NCBI GenBank assembly: GCA_030823955.1 | Contig: JAVBYO010000003.1 | Span: 1-64,000 of the forward strand | Source of the DNA: Gallionellaceae bacterium | GTDB lineage: Bacteria > Pseudomonadota > Gammaproteobacteria > Burkholderiales > Gallionellaceae | Reading direction: 5' to 3' | Length of the DNA stretch: 64,000 nt | Part shown: positions 7,874 through 63,498 of the stretch, one piece after another | Position numbering within the stretch: position 1 is the first letter of the stretch | How the letters are laid out: each line of letters starts with the position of its first letter | The notes under the pieces: generated by a model | What the model saw: the letters and a program-made list of their open reading frames with translations, nothing else | What the model was told of the DNA's origin: nothing | Databases searched by the model: none | Made by a program: the position numbers and the translations under genes

Positions 7874-8230
7874 ATGTCGAACAAGAATGAAGCGCGTCAG
7901 CGCAGAGCACGCAAAACCCGTGCAAAAATTGCTGATCAAAAGGCGGTACGTTTGGCGATCCATCGCACTAACCTGCACATCTACGCACAAGTGATCTCTG
8001 CTTGCGGCGGCAAGGTGTTGGCGAGTGCATCCACTATGGAGGCAGATGTGCGCAAGGAAGTCGGTAACGGCGGTAACGCCGCCGCCGCCGCCATCGTCGG
8101 CAAGCGTATCGCTGAGAAGGCCAAAACTGCCGGTATCACTGCGGTGGCATTTGATCGTTCCGGTAACAAATACCATGGTCGCATCAAGGCGCTGGCAGAA
8201 GCCGCGCGCGAACATGGTCTTCAGTTCTAA
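7874..8230 (+). CDS. rplR: 50S ribosomal protein L18
   Basis: Protein sequence and operon order. Confidence 0.98.
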
Positions 8231-11132: not shown

Positions 11133-11498
11133 ATGGCTCGTATTGCAGGTGTAAACATTCCAAATCATCAACATGCCGAGATCGCGCTGACTGCGATCTA
11201 TGGCGTCGGACGTACCCGCGCGCGCGAAATCTGCGCTGCTGCCGGGATCGCCACATCCACCAAAATGAAAGATGTCAACGACACTGACATGGAGAAACTG
11301 CGCGACGAAGTCGCCAAGTTCACGGTGGAAGGTGATCTGCGTCGTGAGATCTCCATGAACATCAAGCGATTGATGGACTTGGGCTGCTATCGCGGTCTGC
11401 GTCACCGTCGCGGTTTGCCGTGCCGTGGTCAGCGTACCCGTACCAATGCACGCACCCGTAAAGGTCCGCGTAAATCTATCGCCGGCGCGAAGAAGTAA
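11133..11498 (+). CDS. rpsM: 30S ribosomal protein S13
   Basis: Protein sequence and operon order. Confidence 0.98.
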
Positions 11499-11518
11499 TT
11501 TAACAGAGGATTTGAGAC

Positions 11519-11908
11519 ATGGCTAAGACCAGCACGCGAGTGCGCAAGAAAGTCAAAAAGAACGTTGCCGAGGGTATCGCCCACGTGCACGCTTCTTTTA
11601 ACAACACGATTGTGACGATCACTGACCGTCAGGGCAATGCACTGGCATGGTCCACCAGCGGTGGTAACGGCTTCAAGGGCTCTCGCAAGAGTACCCCGTT
11701 TGCCGCCCAGATCGCTGCCGAGCAGGCTGGTAAAGCTGCGCAGGAATGCGGCGTGAAGAACCTGGAAGTGCGCATCAAAGGCCCAGGTCCTGGTCGTGAA
11801 TCCGCCGTGCGTGCGCTGAATGCCGCCGGTTTCAAAATCACCAGCGTTTCGGACATCACGCCAGTGCCGCACAACGGCTGCCGTCCGCCGAAAAAGCGTC
11901 GTATCTAA
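11519..11908 (+). CDS. rpsK: 30S ribosomal protein S11
   Basis: Protein sequence and operon order. Confidence 0.98.
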
Positions 11909-11926
11909 TTGTTGGGAGTATAGATC

Positions 11927-12556
11927 TTGGCTAGAAATCTTGATGCAAAGTGCCGTCAGTGCCGTCGCGAAGGCGAGAAGCTGTTCCTCAAGGCTGAAAA
12001 ATGTTTCACCGACAAATGTGCGGTAGAGCGTCGTGCCTATCCGCCCGGTCAACACGGCCAGAAGAAGAACCAACGTCAATCCGAATACGGCGGCCAGTTG
12101 CGTGAAAAGCAAAAGCTGCGTCGTATCTACGGCGTGATGGAAGGCCAGTTCCGCCTGACTTACAAGCGTGCTGAAGCCGCCCGCGGCATCACCGGCGAAA
12201 GCCTGTTGCAGATCCTTGAATCGCGCCTGGACAACGTTTCCTACCGTATGGGTTTCGGCGCTTCCCGCGCAGAAGCACGCCAAGTGGTGCGTCACAACTC
12301 CATTCTGGTCAACGGCAAACGCGTCAACATCCCGTCGTACCAAGTGCGTCCGGGTGATGTGGTCGAAGTGGCCGAAAAATCCAAGAACCAGTTGCGTGTA
12401 AAAGCTGCGCTGCAAGCGGCCGAACAGCGCGGTTTCCCGGAGTGGATCGATGTCGACGTCAAGGCTTTCAAGGGTACATACAAAGCTTTGCCGCAACGTT
12501 CCGAATTGCCAGCTACGATCAACGAACACCTCGTTGTCGAGTTGTATTCTAAGTAA
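11927..12556 (+). CDS. rpsD: 30S ribosomal protein S4 (TTG start)
   Basis: [26 protein letters not shown]... Confidence 0.97.
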
Positions 12557-12574
12557 TCCACGCGGAGTACATAC

Positions 12575-13546
12575 ATGTCCTATACCAATTTGCTGAAGCC
12601 TCGCATCATCGACGTGCAACGTATCTCTCCTACCCAGGCTCGGGTAGTGATGGAGCCGTTCGAGCGCGGCTACGGCCACACATTGGGCAATGCCCTGCGC
12701 CGTATCCTGTTGTCGTCCATGCCTGGTTATGCAGTGACTGAAGTCAAGATCGCCGGTGTATTGCACGAATACTCGTCCATCGACGGCGTGCAAGAAGACG
12801 TGGTTGAGATCCTGCTGAACCTCAAGGGACTGGTTCTCAAGCTGCACAACATCCGCGAAGCGACTCTGCACCTGAAGAAGTCCGGTGCCGGTGTGGTGAC
12901 TGCTGCGGATATCGAGACCAATGCCGATACCGAAGTCATCAATCCGAACCACGTGATCGCGCATCTCACCGCCGGCGGCAAGCTGGAGATCGAGATCAAG
13001 GTCGAACAAGGCCGCGGTTATGTCTCCGCGATCTCGCGTCAGCAGCCAGGCACGACCCGTCCGGTCGGCCACATCGCGCTGGATGCATCGTTCAGCCCGA
13101 TCTCCCGCGTGAGCTACTCGGTCGAGAGCGCCCGTGTCGAGCAGCGTACCGACTTGGACAAGCTGATCATGGACATCGAAACCAACAGCGCCATCGATCC
13201 GGAAGAATCCATCCGTTACGCAGCGCGTATTCTGGTGGACCAGTTCTCCGTGTTCGCCGCACTGGAAGGTACACCGGCGCCGGTTGAGAAACCACAAGCG
13301 CCTAAGGTCGATCCAATGCTGTTGCGTCCGGTAGATGATTTGGAACTGACACCGCGTTCTTCCAACTGCCTCAAGGCTCAGAGCATCCATTACATCGGCG
13401 ATCTGATCCAGCACAACGAAGCAGACCTGCTGCGCACCCCGAACTTGGGTCGCAAGTCGCTGAACGAGATCAAGCAAGTGTTGGCCGAGCATGGTCTGTC
13501 GCTGGGTATGAAATTGGAAAACTGGCCTGCGACCGCAGAGAAGTAA
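12575..13546 (+). CDS. rpoA: DNA-directed RNA polymerase subunit alpha
   Basis: Protein sequence and operon order. Confidence 0.98.
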
Positions 13547-13582
13547 GCCGGAATAGTTTAAGAGCAGTACGAAAGGATAATC

Positions 13583-13975
13583 ATGCGTCACCGTTTAGGT
13601 CTCAGAAAACTCAACCGCTCCAGCAGTCACCGTCTGGCGATGCTGCGCAACATGACCGTTTCGCTGTTGCGTCACGAAGTCATCAAGACGACTTTGCCCA
13701 AGGCAAAGGAACTGCGTCGCGTGGCAGAACCCATCCTGACATTGGGCAAGACACCAAGTCTGTCCAACCGTCGTTTGGCCTTTGCCCGTCTGCGTGACCG
13801 CGAGATCGTCACCAAGCTGTTCGACGAACTCGGTCCTCGTTATGCAGCTCGTAACGGCGGCTATTCCCGCATTCTGAAGTTCGGTTTCCGTAAGGGCGAC
13901 AACGCTCCTATGGCACTGGTTGAACTGATGGATCGCCCGGCAGAAGCTCAGCCGGTAGAAGTCGCGGACGAATAA
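13583..13975 (+). CDS. rplQ: 50S ribosomal protein L17
   Basis: [24 protein letters not shown]... Confidence 0.98.
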
Positions 13976-13999
13976 GTCTTAAGGACCAATAGCAACGCC

Positions 14000-14034
14000 A
14001 ACTAAAGCCGGACTTGTTCCGGCTTTAGTTTTTT
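14000..14034 (+). terminator. Rho-independent terminator of the ribosomal cluster
   Basis: AACTAAAGCCGGA-cttg-TTCCGGCTTTAGTT-TTTT. Confidence 0.9.
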
Positions 14035-14044
14035 GTGCATAGCT

Positions 14045-14455
14045 TCAAGAGAACCAGCGCAGGAATGCGGCAGCTGAAATGGCGGTGATCGCCAATGCGG
14101 AAGAGGATATCCACACTTTGTCGAGGTGTTGCACCTCCCAGTGTTGCCCCAGCCGCAAATAAGCGGCCAGCATCAGGATCGCTAGCGTTACGCAGATCAT
14201 CTTGATGGCGAGTGCATAGGTCGCTATCCCCGAGATATCAGGAAGCTCCTGGTAGTAATAGAACGTGGTCATGCCGAAGGTGGCACCGCTGGCCGCCTGT
14301 GTCAGCCAGCCGATCAGCACGACTTTCGCCAGCTTTTTACGCATCGCGTTCTCACGCCATTTCAGCGCGATCAGCGAACCGCCCACTACCGCAACTGCCC
14401 CAAAGTTATGGACGATCTGAATCGCCGCGTAAGTCAGGTTTTGCGCGTTACTCAT
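14045..14455 (-). CDS. Small integral membrane protein (about four TM segments)
   Basis: 136 aa hydrophobic ORF; overlaps the next gene by ATGA. Confidence 0.75.
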   Translation of the reverse strand: MSNAQNLTYAAIQIVHNFGAVAVVGGSLIALKWRENAMRKKLAKVVLIGWLTQAASGATFGMTTFYYYQELPDISGIATYALAIKMICVTLAILMLAAYLRLGQHWEVQHLDKVWISSSALAITAISAAAFLRWFS

Positions 14456-14787
14456 TGCGAGGTCACTTCAACGCAGCTTTCCAAGCCTGTTGCCATATGC
14501 GACTTGGTGTTCTCAGTCAGGCATATCTTGTGTTTGCCGGGTTTCAATGCATCGAGTTTGATACTGCCCTTGAGCTGGCGCAATACATCGATGCGTTTGT
14601 TATCGACATACAGATGCAAGTGATCGCCGTTGGTACCCAGCATGGCCTCATAGCTCATCGGAACCATGCTAGTGGTACTGACCATAGCGCCGTTGGCTGG
14701 GGAATAGATGGTGATCTTGCCGTCTGCTGCCAGAGCCTGACCATATGCTAGCGCCAGAAAGAAGGGAATCAAAAGCTTGATGTTCAT
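14452..14787 (-). CDS. Predicted exported periplasmic protein
   Basis: MNIKLLIPFFLALAYGQALAADGK signal peptide, GDHLHLYVD motif; start at MNIKLL within the 14452..14862 ORF. Confidence 0.75.
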   Translation of the reverse strand: MNIKLLIPFFLALAYGQALAADGKITIYSPANGAMVSTTSMVPMSYEAMLGTNGDHLHLYVDNKRIDVLRQLKGSIKLDALKPGKHKICLTENTKSHMATGLESCVEVTSQ

Positions 14788-14908
14788 GATCGTTCTCCTT
14801 ATGTGAATAAGCGGAAGAAACGCATCATCATCTAACAATAGTCGACAATAATTGTCAAGCAAGACACATCCCCACCCGGAGAGTGGGGACTATTTAGCCG
14901 CCAATATT

Positions 14909-17728
14909 TTAAGACTTCACCAGCTTCTTCAAATACGGCCCCGTCACGCTGGCCTTGTTCGCCGCAACATCCTTGGGTGAGCCCTGCGCCACGATGCGGC
15001 CTCCGCCTTCGCCGCCTTCCGGCCCCAGATCGATGACCCAATCCGCCGTCTTGATCACGTCCAGATTGTGTTCGATGACCACTAGGGTATTGCCCTGGTC
15101 GCGCAGGGTGTGGATGACTCTGAGCAACATATCGATGTCGTGGAAATGCAGCCCGGTGGTCGGTTCATCGAGGATATACAGCGTGCGCCCGGTATCGCGT
15201 TTGGACAGCTCCAGCGACAGCTTCACGCGCTGTGCCTCGCCCCCGGAGAGGGTGGTGGCGCTCTGTCCCAGCGTGATGTAACCCAGCCCCACATCCAGCA
15301 GCGTCTTCAGCTTGCGCGCGATGATAGGCACCGCCTTAAAGAACTCATAGGCATGCTCCACCGTCATGTTCAACACCTCGTGGATGCTCTTGCCTTTGTA
15401 CAACACCTCCAGCGTCTCGCGGTTATAACGTTGGCCGTGGCACACGTCGCAAGGCACATACACGTCCGGCAGGAAATGCATCTCCACCTTGATCACGCCG
15501 TCGCCCTGGCAGGATTCGCAGCGTCCACCCTTCACGTTGAAGGAGAAGCGCCCCGGCCCGTAGCCGCGCTCGCGCGCAGTCGGCACACCGGAAAAAAGAT
15601 CGCGTATCGGCGTGAACAATCCGGTATAGGTCGCCGGGTTGGAGCGCGGGGTACGCCCGATAGGTGACTGATCGACATTGATGACCTTGTCGAAGAACTC
15701 CAGCCCCTCGATCTCGGCATAAGGTGCGGGCTCGGCATTGCTGCCGTACAGGTGCTTGGCCACGGCGTTATACAGCGTGTCATTGATGAGGGTGGACTTG
15801 CCCGAGCCGGACACTCCGGCCACGCAGGTGAGCAGCCCAACGGGCAGGTCGAGCGTCACATCCTTAAGGTTGTTGCCGCATGCGCCGCTGATCTTTAGCC
15901 TGCGACCTTTCTCCGGCTTGCGATATTTGTCCGGCAGCGGGATGCTGCGCCGTCCGGAGAGATAGTCGCCGGTGAGTGATTGCGGGTTGGCACATACTTC
16001 TTTGGGTGTTCCTTGCGCCACGATCACGCCGCCATGCTCGCCCGCACCCGGCCCCATATCCACCACATAGTCGGCGGTCTGGATGGCATCTTCGTCGTGC
16101 TCCACCACGATCACACTGTTACCCATGTCGCGCAGGCGCTTCAACGTGTCCAGCAAGCGGTCGTTATCGCGCTGATGCAGGCCGATGGACGGCTCGTCTA
16201 GCACATACATCACCCCGGTGAGGCCGGAGCCGATCTGCGACGCGAGGCGGATACGCTGCGCCTCACCACCGGACAGTGTCTCGGCGGAACGCTCCAGCGA
16301 CAGATAGTCCAGTCCCACGTTGTTGAGGAAGGTCAGGCGGCTGGCGATCTCCAGCACGATCTTCTCTGCGATGGCCTGTTTATTGCCGGGCAGCTTCACC
16401 TGCTGAAAGAAAGTCAGTGCCTGCTTCAGCGGCAAGGCACTGAGCTGATAGATGGTGTGGTCGGCCACGCGTACATGGCGCGCTTCCTCGCGCAAGCGGG
16501 TGCCCTGGCACTCCGGGCAGGAGCAGGAGTTCAGATACTTCGCCAGCTCTTCGCGCACCGTGGGCGAATCCGTCTCCTTGTAACGCCGCTCCAGGTTGTT
16601 CACGATGCCCTCGAAGGCATGCTCGCGCAACATTTTTTTGCCGCGCTCGTTCACATAGGCGAACGGGATCTCTTCGCGGCCACTGCCGTACAACACTACC
16701 TTCTGGATCTTCTCCGGCAAGCGTTCGTACGGACGCTCCAGATCGAATTCGTAATGTTGCGCCAGACTGTCCAGCATCTGGAAATAGAACTGGTTGCGTT
16801 TATCCCAGCCCTTGATCGCGCCACCGCTTAACGACAGCGAGGGAAAGGCCACGATACGGGCCGGATCGAAGAACGAGATCACGCCCAAACCGTCGCACTT
16901 CGGGCAGGCCCCCATCGGGCTGTTGAACGAGAACAAACGCGGTTCCAGCTCTTGCAGCGAATAATTGCACACGGGGCAGGCGAACTTGGCCGAGAACAGA
17001 TGCTCCTTGCCGCTATCCATCTCCACCGCCAGCGCGCGGCCATCGGCATGGCGCAATGCCGTCTCGAACGATTCCGCCAGACGCTGCTTGATGTCGGGTG
17101 CGACTTTCAATCTATCCACCACGATCTCGATGGTGTGTTTCGAATTCTTCGCCAGCTTGGGCAGCGCATCCATCTCGCACACCTTGCCGTTCACACGCAG
17201 GCGCACGAAACCCTGCGCGCGCAGCTCGTCGAACATATCCAATTGCTCGCCTTTGCGCTCTACCACGATAGGCGACAGGATCATCACCTTGGTGCCCTCC
17301 GGCAGCGCCAGCACATGGTCCACCATCTGGCCCACCGACTGCGCCTGCAACACGATGCCGTGCTGCGGGCAATACGGGTCACCCGCGCGCGCGAACAACA
17401 GACGCAGATAATCGTGTATCTCGGTGACAGTACCCACCGTCGAGCGCGGATTGTGCGAAGTGGCCTTCTGCTCGATGGCGATGGCGGGGGAGAGTCCCTC
17501 GATCAGATCTACGTCCGGCTTCTCCATCAATTGCAGGAACTGCCGCGCATAAGCGGAGAGCGATTCCACATAACGCCGCTGCCCTTCCGCATACAGCGTA
17601 TCGAACGCGAGCGAAGACTTGCCGGAGCCGGACAAGCCGGTGATCACAACCAACTGGTTGCGCGGGATATCGAGGTTGATGTTCTTGAGATTGTGGGTGC
17701 GCGCACCGCGTATTTTGATGTATTCCAT
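14909..17728 (-). CDS. uvrA: Excinuclease ABC subunit A
   Basis: [44 protein letters not shown]..., two ABC modules; start trimmed from ORF start 17812. Confidence 0.97.
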
Positions 17729-56322: not shown

Positions 56323-56397
56323 GCCGAAATAGTTCTAGTGGTAAAACAGGGCACTCGTAACGCTCAGTCCTGAGTTCGATTCTCAGTTTCGGCACCA
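56323..56397 (+). tRNA. tRNA-Thr (anticodon CGT), atypical D and anticodon stems, CCA encoded
   Basis: GCCGAAA/TTTCGGC acceptor, CTGAG-TTCGATT-CTCAG T-arm, loop CTCGTAA; TATAAT at 56306-56311. Confidence 0.8.
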
Positions 56398-56433
56398 AGT
56401 CACGTTCTTTTGCAGTCTCAGATATTCTCGAAA

Positions 56434-56467
56434 ACCCGCATAACGTAAGGCGTTGGCGGGTTTTTTA
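56434..56467 (+). terminator. Stem-loop with T-run after tRNA-Thr
   Basis: AAAACCCGC...GCGGGTTTTTT. Confidence 0.65.
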
Positions 56468-56510
56468 ATGTCTATGTGGTCTTAGTTGTTCTCATTGCAT
56501 CTTGCTGGCA

Positions 56511-56562
56511 TTGACGGTATATTCGACGGTATAAAATATACCGCCACTTAATATACCGTCAA
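56511..56562. repeat. Left-end GACGGTATA repeat cluster upstream of int
   Basis: TTGACGGTATAttcGACGGTATAaaaTATACCGCCacttaaTATACCGTCAA. Confidence 0.8.
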
Positions 56563-56574
56563 GAATGGGGAGCA

Positions 56575-57810
56575 ATGATGGCACTAACCGCAATCGAGAT
56601 TAGTAAGACGAAAGCAACGAGCAAGCCGCAAAAATTACCTGACGGCGGCGGCATGTATTTGTACATTCATGTTAACGGTGGCAAGTATTGGCGCATGGAT
56701 TACCGTTATGGCGGCAAGCGTAAAACACTGGCACTTGGCGTATATCCAGAAGTGAGCCTAGCTGATGCAAGAGATCGGCGCGAACAAGCGCGCAAACTGC
56801 TGGCGAATGATGCAGACCCCAGCGAGGTAAAAAAGGAAGTAAAGAAAGCTGAACAGGCTGAAGCAACTAACAGTTTCAAGATAATTGCCAAAGAATTTCA
56901 CAAGATGAAATCTCCTATGTGGACGGTTAGGCATTCAGATTATTGGATGCTCTATATGGATCGATATGTATTCCCCGTCATTGGCGATAAGCCGATAGAT
57001 AAAATAGACCCAATGGATATTGTCGGCATCTTGCGCGGATTGGAAGCAGCCAAAATATTTGAGACACGCGACAGACTAGGGCAATCCATTGGTGCGGTTT
57101 TCAAATACGCAATGGCAACAGGGAGGGCTAAAACGAATCCAGCTGATATTCGCATCGCATTGGCAGACCGCCCCAAAACAAATCATTACCCCTGCATCTC
57201 TACTGCTGAAACACCTGACTTCCTTCGTGCTGTGTCGGGATATGAGCAACGCGGGAAAGTTTCCGCCATTGCAATATCAGCATTTCGTTTGTTGATGCTG
57301 ACAGCGACCCGCACCAGCGAAGTGAGATATTCCAAGTGGGCAGACTTCAACCTTGATGATGGTGCGTGGATCGTTCCTGCCGAACAAAAGGGACGGAAAG
57401 GAAAAATCGGCAAGCGCAAAGATCATGCTGTACCGTTATCAAAACAAGCTGTCGAAATACTGCGCGGACTGCATCCGATTACAGGGGAGTGTGAGTTTGT
57501 ATTCCCTAACCGAAACAAAACGGGCGAAGTTATTAGTGAAAATACAATATTGAAAATAATCGAGAGCGTCGGCTACAAAGGCAAGATGACAGGCCACGGA
57601 TTTAGAAGTTTAGCCCGTTCAGCATTGGGGGATATGGGGTACAGATGGGAAGTGTTAGAAGCGATGTTATCTCATGCTATACCGAACCAAACCGCCGCCG
57701 CATATATTCGCACTACATACTTTGAAGAACGTCGTGCGGTTATGCAGCAGTGGGCGGACTATCTCGACAAGTTAGAAGCTGGTGCAGAAATAATTCCAAT
57801 GCGAGCCTGA
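56575..57810 (+). CDS. Tyrosine recombinase/integrase (P4-type, DUF4102 N-terminus)
   Basis: LPDGGGMYLYIHVNGGKYWRMDYRYGGKRKTLALGVYPEVSLADARDRREQARKLLAND...; R..HGFR..Y-type catalytic region TGHGFRSLARS. Confidence 0.95.
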   Translation: MMALTAIEISKTKATSKPQKLPDGGGMYLYIHVNGGKYWRMDYRYGGKRKTLALGVYPEVSLADARDRREQARKLLANDADPSEVKKEVKKAEQAEATNSFKIIAKEFHKMKSPMWTVRHSDYWMLYMDRYVFPVIGDKPIDKIDPMDIVGILRGLEAAKIFETRDRLGQSIGAVFKYAMATGRAKTNPADIRIALADRPKTNHYPCISTAETPDFLRAVSGYEQRGKVSAIAISAFRLLMLTATRTSEVRYSKWADFNLDDGAWIVPAEQKGRKGKIGKRKDHAVPLSKQAVEILRGLHPITGECEFVFPNRNKTGEVISENTILKIIESVGYKGKMTGHGFRSLARSALGDMGYRWEVLEAMLSHAIPNQTAAAYIRTTYFEERRAVMQQWADYLDKLEAGAEIIPMRA

Positions 57811-58121
57811 CCCATTGGTTCGTAGAAGCCACAGGTTGGTTTAAGTTGTTTCATATTAATAACCTGCAACGCACGCCAATATCATTTGCTGCTACACAAA
57901 GCCTCAAACAGTGGGTGAGCAATCCCAGCAAGTTACGATCTGACTACGTTGCGGGAACGTGCCACTGTCGGCTTTCTGCTTCTCTATGTCGATGACCGAT
58001 AGGCATAGCCATTGGTCGAAGATGTTGTATTGTGTGTCAACTCCACACCCAAAGCTGGCGCCAGTGGAATGCTAAAATAATGCAGCAGCTCACTCGCGAT
58101 TTAAATTTTGATTGATGGATC

Positions 58122-59963
58122 CTAGTTACCCTGTTGAACAGTCGCCTTGTCTGGAATAACACCTGTTGCAATAAATTTTGCAACAGCATCTACAACTATT
58201 TCATTCATGTAGTATTGCGAATGAGTAAACGAGATTTCACCAAGTGCTTCCTGAATTTTTTTTTCAATGGATAGCACAATTAATTTTGTTTGCTCTCTCA
58301 GTTTTTCCTCTGTAATGCCGGGCACATGTTTTTGTTCACGCAGCATGATGGGCAAATAGGGCTCAACTTTTTTCCATATTCTTGATTCATTAATGCTGCG
58401 TTCTCTCTCTTGACCATCATTTATAAAAGCATAGCGCTTCGCGTTTGATTGCACTTTAGAATCATTTACCTCATTGGCGCTAAAAACAGCCTCTGAATTC
58501 AACAACAATTCCGTAACATCCCAGTTGGCTTCTCGAAGCCATTGATTGACGCCAGAGTTCACGCTTACACTTACGTAGGCATTTTTAAATTCATTACCTG
58601 GCAGTCCATAACCTGCAGACTGAAGAATTCTCAACATACTAAAATTCAGAAAATTTTCCAAAATTTTCCGAAAAGGAAAAAGAAAACTCCAATAAACAGA
58701 ATACGAAATTGCAGTCCAAATTACTCTAATTATTTCCTTCACAAATCTATAAGCTGGCTCCCCCTCTGTTTTAACCTTAGTGAATTTTGGAGGTGATATA
58801 TATTCCGCTATTCTGGGGTAAATTATGCTGTACATTAATGGCTCGGATGACATCGCAATAAGAGCCTCATCCAAATAGCGTGCATTAATCGTTAATGCTT
58901 TAATTCGAGGATCGCCATCACTTTCGTTAGCTCCTTCAGAATGCAATCTACCCACATTATTTTCGTCAAAATAGTAATTTAAATCGTTATAGCTAAACTT
59001 TTCAAATGCAACTCCCAACACACCAATAACTGAAAAAACAGGAATCCCAATTAATAAATAATTTGACCATTCAAGTGGATTGATGATCGGAGACTGCACC
59101 CATCCAAATGTTAAACCGAAGACGCCCCACACCAATGACCACACCACAATTATTTCCAACCAAATTATCAAGCACAGGCCTATTGCAAATACTGGAAACT
59201 CAAGTAATGTCACCGCAATTTGTAGAAATAATCGTTTAGAGGGATGCCAAAATTTTCGCAGGAAAGGTGTTCCTAAAAAAACGAACTTCCCAAGATGATT
59301 AACTTTTGTCTTAACAAGTTTTTGAATTTTATTATCAATATTTAGGCTGTATTCCCATCTCTTGTCGCCGGATACATCTTTTCTATAATACGCTGACATA
59401 TAGTCTTCATATATTTTGACATCAGAAGTAAGGGCTGCCCAGAACTCTTCTTCAGGTATCTCAAGATTAGTATCGTTCCAATTTCGCTTGTCGCATGCTC
59501 TATAAAATGCAGCTTTAGAATCTTTTTTCTCTTGCTTATACATTTCATGAATAAAATCACTTATAAATGATCGGAAATTTTTTTCAGAAAACTTTAAATA
59601 TAGCTCTAGCGATTTCAGGGCAACATTCCCGCCATGGCTATGTGCCACAATATGAATTCGTGCATTTGAATCTTGTTGCTCAATTTTTTTAATGTGCTCA
59701 AATAACTCGGCAGCTGCAGTTATTCGAGCAATATGGTCGTTATCTCCTGACCACAAAAATTCACTATTTATTTTTTCGGTTTTTCGATTAACCGCTCCAG
59801 TAATTCCGTAGCCCGTCAGCTTTTCCTCAAGTAGGGAACAGAAATTTTTACGGCCATTTGGATTGCACCGAAATTGGCTCGGCTTATCATGCTCAGGGGA
59901 GGCCCAAGTTCCATGGACAAGCACAATATAATGAGTTTCTACATGCTGGGCTTCATTTTTCAT
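58122..59963 (-). CDS. Alpha/beta-hydrolase (lipase-like) with central transmembrane segments
   Basis: HYIVLVHGTWASPEHD, ARIHIVAHSHGGNVALKSLE, LDEALIAMSS, ISFTHSQYYMNEIVVDAVAKFIATG; hydrophobic block LLEFPVFAIGLCLIIWLEIIVVWSLVWGVFGL; start trimmed from 60014. Confidence 0.75.
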   Translation of the reverse strand: MKNEAQHVETHYIVLVHGTWASPEHDKPSQFRCNPNGRKNFCSLLEEKLTGYGITGAVNRKTEKINSEFLWSGDNDHIARITAAAELFEHIKKIEQQDSNARIHIVAHSHGGNVALKSLELYLKFSEKNFRSFISDFIHEMYKQEKKDSKAAFYRACDKRNWNDTNLEIPEEEFWAALTSDVKIYEDYMSAYYRKDVSGDKRWEYSLNIDNKIQKLVKTKVNHLGKFVFLGTPFLRKFWHPSKRLFLQIAVTLLEFPVFAIGLCLIIWLEIIVVWSLVWGVFGLTFGWVQSPIINPLEWSNYLLIGIPVFSVIGVLGVAFEKFSYNDLNYYFDENNVGRLHSEGANESDGDPRIKALTINARYLDEALIAMSSEPLMYSIIYPRIAEYISPPKFTKVKTEGEPAYRFVKEIIRVIWTAISYSVYWSFLFPFRKILENFLNFSMLRILQSAGYGLPGNEFKNAYVSVSVNSGVNQWLREANWDVTELLLNSEAVFSANEVNDSKVQSNAKRYAFINDGQERERSINESRIWKKVEPYLPIMLREQKHVPGITEEKLREQTKLIVLSIEKKIQEALGEISFTHSQYYMNEIVVDAVAKFIATGVIPDKATVQQGN

Positions 59964-60272
59964 AATTGCTTTTCGTACTATTAGAACTAGGGAACCAATA
60001 ATGAATTGGAGCATACATTGAGTGCCTGCTCAATCTCTGCAGATACAATGTAAAATTTAGACAGAACATCAACGTCTGATTTTAGACAAACGAGTTAACC
60101 TTCAATACAACATGATCGACCGACGACTAAGCCCACTTAGCAGTCTCTGCTGAGTGGCTGAAATGCTGCTACCTAAGCAACCCAAATGGGATGTAACGCA
60201 GTTCCGAGACTCTGCCCCTTTTTGAGAACTAAAATCTTTAGCGCTCTCAATTCTATGTAGTATTCTACGGGA

Positions 60273-60983
60273 ATGATTGATCGCTACCTTTCTATCTGGG
60301 AAATCGCCCACCGCTGGCGTGACGTAAATCCAGACAAATCCGATTCCGCAGGCCTCCCTCTAAATATTCAAGATACGATTCGATATATTTGCCGTGGCGT
60401 ACTTGGCGGGGGAATTTCCCTTTTTCAGTTGGCCATCGAACAAGCTGAGCCTCTCAAAAATGGCTCTACTTTTAGATCTGAAGTAAGGCTATATATCGTG
60501 GGCGAATTCCCTAATGAGTTGGAAGGCGCCCTCACCCGAAAATACAATAAAGAAGCTCTTAATTCCTATTACATAGAAGCTGAAAATCTCTTCGATTATT
60601 GCTTATATAACCAAGTTGAAAAATCTACGACAGGCAATTGTTATGTAGATTTTCCGGCGTGCTGGTCTCACCTAAATGGATATGCATCTTCGAGTGACTC
60701 TGAGCAAGAAGATTGCGAGCCTCCAAAAATTAGCACTCAGCCGCTACGTCCCTCACAAGTGGACAAACTTATTTGCCAAGCAATCGCCAAAACCCTTTGG
60801 GATGAGTATCCACAAATGACCATCGCCGCCATGACTGAGCACAAAGCGATTCTGGAGTACGGAGGCGGGAAGCTCTACTCGGGGAAAAATACTCTCCGCG
60901 ATTGGCTCAGTGAAGTGGCTCCACCCGATGTCAAAAAACCCGGCAGACCCAAAAGCATAAAACCCAATAAAGACGTGGCCTAA
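60273..60983 (+). CDS. Hypothetical protein of the integrative element
   Basis: 236 aa; C-term YPQMTIAAMTEHKAILEYGGGKLYSGKNTLRDWLSEVAPPDVKKPGRPKS. Confidence 0.7.
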   Translation: MIDRYLSIWEIAHRWRDVNPDKSDSAGLPLNIQDTIRYICRGVLGGGISLFQLAIEQAEPLKNGSTFRSEVRLYIVGEFPNELEGALTRKYNKEALNSYYIEAENLFDYCLYNQVEKSTTGNCYVDFPACWSHLNGYASSSDSEQEDCEPPKISTQPLRPSQVDKLICQAIAKTLWDEYPQMTIAAMTEHKAILEYGGGKLYSGKNTLRDWLSEVAPPDVKKPGRPKSIKPNKDVA

Positions 60984-61061
60984 AAATACCCGCCATCCCC
61001 TAGAAATATCATTTTTTCTGTCGGCGGGAATTTTCTCACTGAAATCACTGACACAGTATTC

Positions 61062-61087
61062 GTGCTCCTTCAACAACTCAGGAGCAC
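61062..61087 (+). promoter_or_regulatory. Perfect stem-loop overlapping rep Shine-Dalgarno (candidate origin or translational control)
   Basis: GTGCTCCT-tcaacaactc-AGGAGCAC. Confidence 0.65.
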
Positions 61088-61090
61088 AGC

Positions 61091-62011
61091 ATGGATCAGA
61101 AACCCGAAATTATTACTGGAGCCGCCGGAGCCGTGAAGCCGCCCGCCCGCACTCACGCGCAGCGGGAGGTGGACGGACGGATGCACGGCGAGGTGGCAAT
61201 TACTATCCTTTCGGCACCTCAGTCTGGTGAGGCGTCCTCGGGCGGCGAAGCCGCCGCTCTTAGACTTGAAAAGAGGACATATTCCAACACAGCCAACACC
61301 GCTAAAAACCGCATCGTTTTACGAAACTACGGCAGAGGTCTTGCGGAAGTCGGCTGGTCTTTTGTCGGTCTGAGTCCAACTCACAAAGCGGCTCGCGGTT
61401 CATCCTCTCAGCGCACCCAGAATGAGGATCGTGCAGCTCGTCGCGCAAAGTCTCGATTGCGACAACTCGTCTTGAGCGCAAACCTCAATCACCTGCTCAC
61501 CCTCACTTATCGAGAGAACATCACCGACTTCAATCGCGCATCAGATGATTTAAATCGCTTCGTGCGCAAGATGAAATTTAATTTACCTTGCTGGCTTTAT
61601 GTCGCTGTCGCTGAACAGCAAGAACGAGGTGCATGGCATTGGCATCTAGCGGTTCAAGGCCGTCAAGATGTGGAATTGATTCGCACACTCTGGCGCGAAA
61701 TTGTTGGCGAAGGAAATATCGATGTCAGCGCCCCCAAAGGCACTCGCAAGGATCAGCGGCTCTATCTGGTTCAGTATCTCGGAAAGTATCTGGTCAAAGC
61801 CTTCGCAACAGGCGATAGGAAGCTCAACAAGCACCGCTTCCGCTCGTCGCGCAACATCAGGGTGCCTATGGAGTGTTTCACCCTCTCGCCGCGCTCTGAA
61901 CGCAAAGTAGAGGATGTTGCACTCGACAAGCTGAAGGAGGCATCAGGTGGTGCGGTCGGTTTCGTGTGGGATGGGGAAGGCTTGCTCGCCGGATGGGCGT
62001 GCTCTTGGTAA
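61091..62011 (+). CDS. HUH-type rolling-circle replication initiator (Rep)
   Basis: Motif I HLLTLTYREN, motif II RGAWHWHLAVQ (HUH), motif III YLVQYLGKYLVKAF. Confidence 0.8.
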   Translation: MDQKPEIITGAAGAVKPPARTHAQREVDGRMHGEVAITILSAPQSGEASSGGEAAALRLEKRTYSNTANTAKNRIVLRNYGRGLAEVGWSFVGLSPTHKAARGSSSQRTQNEDRAARRAKSRLRQLVLSANLNHLLTLTYRENITDFNRASDDLNRFVRKMKFNLPCWLYVAVAEQQERGAWHWHLAVQGRQDVELIRTLWREIVGEGNIDVSAPKGTRKDQRLYLVQYLGKYLVKAFATGDRKLNKHRFRSSRNIRVPMECFTLSPRSERKVEDVALDKLKEASGGAVGFVWDGEGLLAGWACSW

Positions 62012-62083
62012 AGGTGAAATAAACACTCACACCCACACATAAATCTCACGGCCTCTCAAGATCATTTTTATAGGAAAAACATT

Positions 62084-62311
62084 ATGCAAACCGAACTCCC
62101 AACAAACGAAATCGCTTATGAACATATGACAGACTATCTTTTGCCACGGAAGACAGTTGAGAAATTGTCCGGCTTAAGCAGGGCAACAATTTATCGCTTA
62201 ATGAAATTAGGGAAATTTCCAAACTCTGTATCTATCGGAACAGGAGCTGTGCGCTGGCGGCAGTCCGATGTTATGGCTTGGCAAATGTCACTGCCCACTA
62301 CAGCAAAATAA
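62084..62311 (+). CDS. AlpA-family phage-type regulator (excisionase-like HTH)
   Basis: LLPRKTVEKLSGLSRATIYRLMKLGKFPNSVSIGTGAVRWRQSDVMAWQ. Confidence 0.9.
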   Translation: MQTELPTNEIAYEHMTDYLLPRKTVEKLSGLSRATIYRLMKLGKFPNSVSIGTGAVRWRQSDVMAWQMSLPTTAK

Positions 62312-62325
62312 TGATGTTCGATCAA

Positions 62326-62438
62326 TACCGTCAAGCATTGGCTCATCTTGTATAATTAAAGCGTGTGAATACGTCCGTGTTCTGTATATATAATTTCGCA
62401 AGCAGCGAATGATTGACGGTATAAATGGCGGTATATTA
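62326..62438. repeat. Right-end GACGGTATA repeat cluster
   Basis: TACCGTCAA at 62326 (inverted), TTGACGGTATAaatgGCGGTATATT at 62413-62438. Confidence 0.75.
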
Positions 62439-62517
62439 TTTATGTCGACTAAATATTCGTTGCAAGAATGTGGCTTGCCAGTCGCTTTTCGACTGACAGT
62501 TTCCCATCTGATTTTCT

Positions 62518-63498
62518 TCAGGCGACCGATCTGACGCAGTTTCCGCCGTTCTTCTGTGCTTCTTGCAAGGCTTGTTCCGCTCTGGCCAAGAGGCCGGGCA
62601 ATCCGTCGTCACGTAGTTGGCAGACACCCAGCGAGACCGTGATCTTGGGCAATGCATCTCCACTGGGCAACACGATGGGCGCAGCGCTGATCGCCAGCCG
62701 CAGCCGCTCTGCCGCGATGCAGGCGGATTCTATTGCGGTCGTGTAGGGCAGGAATACGATGAATTTCGAGCCGGCATAATGTCCGGCCTGGTCTTCCGGG
62801 CGCTGGCACGAGATGACGGTGTGTGCGAAGGTCCTCAACGCCTGGTCACCTCCGAGTACGCCATATTTTTCTACATACTCGCGATGACCATCTATCTCCA
62901 GCATCACCATGCAACTGAAACGGTTGTCCACCAGGCAGCGTTTCAGGTAACGGCCCAGCTCTTTGTGTATCCAGTGCTGGTTATACAAGCCTGTCACGCT
63001 GTCCACCATGTTGAATCCCTGGTAGCCGTTATGCTGCTCCAGAGATTCGGAGGTGATCTGGTCGTTGATCTCCAAGCGCCGGCTCAGGATGCGCAGCAGA
63101 TTGAGCGCCGCCTGGTGTGATTCTTCGAGCAATGCCCAGACTGACGATAATTCGATGGCGAGTAACTCACAGTCGGTTGCGGCGATCACGAAGCTGGCAT
63201 TGTGTCTGTCGCTCAATACCGACATCTCGCCGATGCTGTCGCCTTCGCCATACATGGCGAGAGGAGGGGCGTCGGTATCGGCCAATTGGATGCGCAGGCG
63301 TCCGGACAAGATCACGTACACATATTGCGTCGCTTGTCCGGGAACCAGCAGCTTGTCATCTTTGGCAAGCCGTACCACGAGCGGCGGGGTCAGGATGCGG
63401 GTGACGGTCTCTTGTGAGGCCCCCTGAAACAACGGAATCGTTGCCAGCAAGTCGAGGTTCGCCGGTGACAGTGTGGTTGCGCTATGTTGAAGGGCCAT
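62518..63498 (-). CDS. Cyclic nucleotide-binding domain + degenerate GGDEF domain protein
   Basis: cNMP-binding pattern (VYVILSGRLRIQLAD...YGEGDSIGEMSVLSDRHNASFVIAATDCELLAI) then GGDEF-like SVTGLYNQHWIHKELGRYL...AGHYAGSKFIVFLP. Confidence 0.88.
   Translation of the reverse strand: MALQHSATTLSPANLDLLATIPLFQGASQETVTRILTPPLVVRLAKDDKLLVPGQATQYVYVILSGRLRIQLADTDAPPLAMYGEGDSIGEMSVLSDRHNASFVIAATDCELLAIELSSVWALLEESHQAALNLLRILSRRLEINDQITSESLEQHNGYQGFNMVDSVTGLYNQHWIHKELGRYLKRCLVDNRFSCMVMLEIDGHREYVEKYGVLGGDQALRTFAHTVISCQRPEDQAGHYAGSKFIVFLPYTTAIESACIAAERLRLAISAAPIVLPSGDALPKITVSLGVCQLRDDGLPGLLARAEQALQEAQKNGGNCVRSVA

Follow-up and report, generated by a model that had tools for sequence, protein, structure and literature searches.

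A small integrative element at a tRNA-Thr gene in the Gallionellaceae, with a rolling-circle initiator and a structurally conserved hairpin inside the initiator gene

How might a small integrative element that encodes an integrase and a replication initiator, and that lacks genes for transfer or for particles, be replicated and moved? The question is raised by a locus in a Gallionellaceae bacterium whose assembly is fragmented (36 contigs, 85% complete); the window analysed here is a stretch of 64,000 nt from one contig. An earlier note had described an element at positions 56398–62440, in which a tRNA-Thr gene is followed by genes for an integrase (+), a lipase-like cargo protein (−), a hypothetical protein (+), an HUH Rep (+) and an AlpA-like protein (+). 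All of these were found in the sequence. We conclude that the locus holds a small integrative element of ∼6.1 kb, inserted at tRNA-Thr(CGT).

The integrase gene (int, 56575–57810, + strand) encodes a tyrosine integrase of 411 aa of the Arm-DNA-bind_3 type, which matches the Pfam families Arm-DNA-bind_3, Phage_int_M and Phage_integrase, each above its cut-off. An AlpA-family regulator or excisionase of 75 aa (62084–62311, + strand) matches PF05930 at 3.7e-15. The Rep, here called type A, is an HUH rolling-circle initiator of 306 aa (61091–62011, + strand) that matches PF23343 REP_ORF2-G2P (7.7e-13) and phrog_3419, rolling-circle initiation (5.6e-54). Its HUH motif is WHWH (residues 182–185) and its tyrosines lie at Y229-x3-Y233, both being invariant in A1; the window Rep thus has the HUH domain and catalytic tyrosine expected of a rolling-circle replicon. 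The PDB yielded no sequence match to it. The proposed combination of tyrosine integrase, HUH Rep and AlpA-type regulator is thus borne out by family matches in Pfam and PHROG, and scans with both found no structural, Zot or conjugation genes in the element, as had been claimed.

Between int and rep lie two further genes. The 236-aa protein (60273–60983, + strand) belongs to a family kept upstream of rep and ends in a basic GRPK tail; identity is 58% in the related element L007 and 23% in L011. It has no significant match in Pfam, PHROG, NCBIfam or PADLOC, and is probably a DNA-binding or regulatory protein. The cargo gene (58122–59963, − strand) encodes 613 aa with hydrophobic stretches. The lipase-like description survives as an alpha/beta-hydrolase similarity (AHSHGG), though a weak one: the match to DUF676 has an E-value of 7e-4, below gathering. 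Searches with the cargo protein gave no PADLOC defence-model match and no plasmid homologue. A 42-nt imperfect inverted repeat (76%; 58002–58043 and 60092–60133) flanks the gene, giving it the look of a cassette or of what was once a small transposon.

The tRNA-Thr(CGT) gene (56323–56397, + strand) is the integration target, and is intact and identical in element-free genomes of the same genus. The G+C content is 35–46% over most of the element, 53–55% over rep and 53–60% in the flanks; the low-G+C stretch starts at the tRNA and stops before a CRP-GGDEF gene at 62518. A long perfect direct repeat of the tRNA was sought for this element and none was found. Instead, the candidate attL core in the tRNA 3' end, TTCGATTCTCAGTTTC (56375–56390, + strand), is short and imperfect, matching TTCGACTGACAGTTTC at 62488–62503 in 13 of 16 positions, and the sequences beside the core do not rebuild a classical attB. 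The right end (attR, 62484–62503, + strand) consists of CTTTTCGACTGACA followed by GTTTC. L007, which has the same integrase type and lies at a tRNA-Ser, shows a like arrangement, again with a 13/16 core, and shares CTTTTCGACTGACA with the window at its right end; the right ends of L007 and of L129, a third element with the window-type integrase, both repeat the attR motif TTTTCGACTGACA. Furthermore, homology between L007 and the flanking host gene of other Nitrotoga genomes starts a few bases from this motif. As the right end is placed by the motif common to L007 and L129 and by the edge of host homology in L007, the length of the element is ∼6,120 bp. A right end at 62,440 was ruled out by the shared motif at 62,484–62,497; the earlier size of ∼6 kb stands, and the end itself lies near 62,484–62,503. 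The ‘right repeats’ described at 62415–62435 do exist, and are GACGGTATA-like. Arm-type sites of this kind occur on the right at 62324–62332 (−), 62415–62423 (+) and 62427–62435 (+), and on the left at 56513–56560 as four GACGGTATA-like copies, of which two are in direct orientation, ∼12 nt from each other, and the other two are inverted. It is more likely that these copies serve as arm sites for the integrase than that they form the att core.

The element is not fixed at this locus. In G010, from the same family, the syntenic genes are thiO, tRNA-Thr and CRP/GGDEF, in that order and with neither an integrase nor a Rep among them, and in G004 and G002, from the same genus, an identical tRNA-Thr adjoins thiO without the element; these comparisons supply element-free loci rather than a base-exact empty site. 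An integrase, an RNA-gene target, att repeats (with a 13/16 core) and an element-free locus in relatives together mark the element as site-specific and integrative. In a further genome, G020, the same tRNA-Thr/thiO locus holds a different sister element with an unrelated Rep (L083, 4764–10241).

The search for related int/AlpA/Rep elements with a protein of the 236-aa family, which the earlier note had suggested, was successful. Type-A Reps occur in L007 and L008 from Candidatus Nitrotoga (81–83% identity) and in L011 (67%) and, outside the family, in L080 and L081. Close relatives, from Candidatus Nitrotoga and from further Gallionellaceae, have the backbone in common with the window element, and within it the cargo, the integrase, the tRNA, the upstream gene and even the Rep vary. 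Of the two integrase types, one, that of the window, occurs at the genes for tRNA-Thr and tRNA-Ser and the second at those for tRNA-Arg, -His, -Lys, -Pro and -Thr; there are two small HTH regulators, AlpA and HTH_17, and several different upstream genes. Elements with the other integrase type (L008, L011, L083, L101, L126, L128 and L080) have perfect tRNA direct repeats of 45–55 bp, which set their ends and hence give sister-element lengths of 5.0–9.4 kb. In L130, a second integrase and a gene of the 236-aa family directly follow the element (11450–14370), possibly as tandem elements.

The slot between the integrase and the 236-aa gene holds the cargo. In relatives it contains matches to the candidate defence systems PDC-M71 (L007) and PDC-M31 (L101), a retron II-A with RT and NDT (L129), a type IIG restriction enzyme (L128) and PDC-M68/SMEK (SMEK/ABC-3C; L126). 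Because relatives use the slot mostly for anti-phage systems, the hydrolase-like protein of the window is a candidate defence gene, a role suggested by its position only. Two details of these cargo-bearing elements may be recorded: in L128 an AlbA_2/RecG-C-like protein with weak PADLOC similarity to pAgo (13805–15268) adjoins the type IIG enzyme, and the integrase frame of the retron-carrying element (L129, 6846–8608) is split into two overlapping frames, possibly by a frameshift.

Two hairpins lie at the start of rep. H1 (GTGCTCC..GGAGCAC, 61062–61087, + strand) is directly upstream of the start codon; its 3' arm contains a GGAG Shine–Dalgarno sequence, and the hairpin covaries in G020 (GTACTCC/GGAGTAC). 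It is present in six family elements and is not universal, and its pattern was absent from viral contigs. H2 (61121–61197, + strand), a long, rod-like hairpin, lies within the 5' portion of the rep coding sequence; it measures 77–86 nt across the family, in which its structure is kept. Nine gapless 86-nt copies yield 36 pairs (90.7% paired), of which 19 have changed on both sides; none of 500 shuffles reached this covariation, and slid controls were at most 42% paired. The L128-like copies have an inner stem almost wholly different in sequence, yet pair end to end. The window copy is the family's weakest (28 pairs, z −4.0). Covariance models from which the window had been left out nevertheless found it, at 33.7 bits and at 38.4 bits (E 5e-5, such E-values being rough), and its minimum free energy of −48.0 compares with −29.5 ± 4.1 under synonymous-codon permutation, with none of 500 permutations as stable. 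The stability of H2 is thus stronger than coding requires. A conserved peptide was ruled out as its cause: the encoded residues vary widely while the pairing stays. Among stem cells, 35 are G-T and four A-C; because G-T cells outnumber A-C cells, selection acts on the rep-sense strand. We conclude that H2 is a genuine structure, maintained by selection on that strand.

No Rfam family matches H2. A search by its structure picked up five more elements that Rep searches had missed, and in an order-level sample matches were found in Gallionellaceae only; a phylum-wide scan, run without a positive control, was empty. The genome G020 has at least three H2 elements (at 1375649, 1691838 and 2666584).

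The same H2 precedes an unrelated Rep, type B, in L083, L101 and L126–L130. This Rep is related to those of a 1.7-kb Mesotoga plasmid and to a Thermus phage endonuclease; structure models of it, as of the 236-aa protein, were of low confidence. The distance of H2 from the start codon differs among elements, and the hairpin is kept before both unrelated Reps. What follows H2 depends on the Rep. With type A, it is GGCGGC-loop-GCCGCC and then CTTAGACTTGA or a close variant; with type B, a covarying GGGTNC..GNACCC hairpin whose loop is CGCCTACTAACAGA or close variants. In the window the type-A structure, H3A (61234–61278, + strand), has an outer stem GTCCTC/GAGGAC and an inner hairpin GGCGGCGAAGCCGCC, followed by CTTAGACTTGAAAA. 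By analogy with origins of the phiX174 and pC194 type, the nick would probably be made at CTTG^A (61268/61269; motif 61265–61269). When the 17-mer GCCGCCCYTWGACTTGA was sought in viral contigs, its 11 matches were all chance occurrences without a Rep. The type-B hairpin is also present in L146, a distant type-B element that lacks H2. The simplest reading is that each Rep has its own origin in the hairpin after H2, with H2 itself having another function, common to the elements and specific to the lineage.

What could that function be? H2 could act in rep mRNA rather than in single-stranded DNA, as the strand would be the same in either case. H1 and H2 would then be RNA controls of rep translation only, an arrangement compatible with any route of transfer. 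They do lie at and just past the rep start, H1 sequesters GGAG, and selection on the sense strand is what is expected of an mRNA. Nevertheless, H2 is kept before two unrelated Reps at varying distances from the start codon, H1 is not universal, and an isolated copy of H2 occurs in a Mu-like prophage (L082), so that we regard translational control as an unlikely sole function, albeit one that deserves some weight. The L082 copy is an orphan rep leader (7984–8168), running from H2 through CTTGA without H1 or Rep, between Mu-like prophage genes of a Nitrotoga genome; its homology stops no more than one base from the predicted nick.

We favour, as probably the best overall explanation, a cycle of excision and rolling-circle replication from an origin inside rep, with H2 as a Rep-independent single-strand signal. 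Judging from their families and positions, the integrase and AlpA would integrate and excise the element. The excised circle would replicate by the rolling-circle mechanism, the HUH Rep nicking the rep-sense strand within its own gene, and the displaced strand would bear H2 just 5' of the nick. There, H2 may return the displaced strand to duplex, like a single-strand origin (sso), or mark it for transfer or packaging. In most rolling-circle plasmids the sso is upstream of the double-strand origin, dso (PMC4595007). Because H2 is 5' of the predicted nick, where most such plasmids have their sso, an sso-like or transfer signal is its most likely role; the sso fits further in being strand-specific. 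Rolling-circle plasmids and ICEBs1 (dso plus sso) likewise combine an HUH Rep or relaxase with a structured region on the displaced strand upstream of the dso, corresponding to the candidate dso here; unlike in those systems, the candidate signals of the element are inside the rep coding sequence.

Since the element has no transfer or particle genes, a helper is plausible, although unproven. One such helper would be a filamentous phage: the element would be an inovirus satellite with an inovirus-derived Rep and cis signals, H2 being packaging-like and the helper supplying coat, pIII and Zot. The nearest non-element Reps are indeed those of inoviruses with Zot, coat and g6p, a size of 5.0–9.4 kb would suit, and H2 is a long imperfect hairpin beside the candidate origin on the would-be displaced strand. 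However, Rep is distant from inovirus Reps (25–39% identity), and the element Reps form a clade of their own, set off by a long branch (99/100), and do not fall within any sampled inovirus group. Zot was found in none of the eight element-bearing genomes, while two inovirus-bearing relatives have it; H2 did not turn up in any inovirus locus tested, and there is no sign of packaging. IMG/VR, phage and plasmid collections yielded no close Rep relative, the only IMG/VR element being a type-B relative without H2. The inoviruses pMsip02 of Methylovorus and Inoviridae ctiKU136 have a distant Rep homologue (37–39%), pMsip02 also an Arm-type integrase, but the window element lacks their Zot, coat, pIII and g6p, and with Zot/g1 ATPase and coat genes missing it is no inovirus prophage. 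We therefore consider an inovirus satellite very unlikely. Helper dependence and satellite status, as put forward in the earlier note, are conjectural; with Zot in none of the eight genomes and none of the tested inovirus loci yielding H2, the satellite claim stays hypothetical.

Could a tailed phage move the element instead? The closest described layout is that of the Pseudomonas islands with IntY, AlpA and an inovirus Gp2-like protein, which are moved by a jumbo phage (PMC12595487). There too the integrase and AlpA are at opposite ends, a replication-type protein is encoded next to AlpA, the site is an RNA gene, autonomous transfer genes are lacking, and defence cargo is carried, which is matched here in relatives and not in the window's own cargo. 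An island of this int–AlpA–Gp2 kind would be transduced as double-stranded DNA, with Rep serving for amplification; that the type-B relative L146 sits in a 42.6-kb viral contig agrees with this. The IntY islands, however, have an ∼18-kb common region, a tmRNA site with a 14-bp repeat, RadC, YqaJ and the Gp2-like protein, whereas the present element is of ∼6 kb and its family has tRNA sites, a PF23343 Rep, the hairpins H1, H2 and H3, and an alternative, unrelated Rep. The window element, at tRNA-Thr rather than tmRNA, gave no match to Inovirus_Gp2 (Pfam), RadC or YqaJ, and there is no evidence of transduction here. We hold this route to be rather unlikely, if worth keeping in mind. The PICMI satellites of Vibrionaceae (PMC10803314) are also similar in their minimal content, with int and AlpA, rolling-circle replication, a defence gene and no capsid genes; they differ in having a DUF3987/DUF5906 primase and a site downstream of fis, where the window element has an HUH Rep and tRNA-Thr, and no primase in Pfam and PHROG scans. 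Nor did these scans find the primase-replication module or the capsid or terminase interference genes of P4 and PICI.

Finally, the HUH Rep might double as a relaxase, in which case a conjugative helper would move the nicked strand of a mobilisable element (IME). Rep-family proteins can act as relaxases (MOBT, PMC11389934) and elements of this sort can have an sso, as ICEBs1 does (PMC4595007), but searches that included Pfam and PHROG scans matched no family of relaxases, coupling proteins or T4SS components, and the Rep is of the phage/plasmid type with two tyrosines. Mobilisation of this kind seems quite unlikely.

Returning to rolling-circle replication with H2 as a single-strand signal, we suggest, tentatively and with somewhat more doubt than belief, that H2 is a Rep-independent, single-strand cis signal of a new class, concealed within coding sequence. 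It would define a family of small, defence-carrying Gallionellaceae elements, being fixed while Rep, origin hairpin, integrase, tRNA, regulator and cargo are swapped. Many small anti-phage islands lack any evident route of transfer. The present family provides a minimal, testable unit, in which two unrelated rolling-circle initiators, each with a candidate nick hairpin, stand behind one strongly covarying shared hairpin. H2 provides a structure-based handle for finding such islands, and the cargo slot is a place to look for new defence genes. If H2 does govern strand conversion or packaging, it would tell us what such islands require in order to move.
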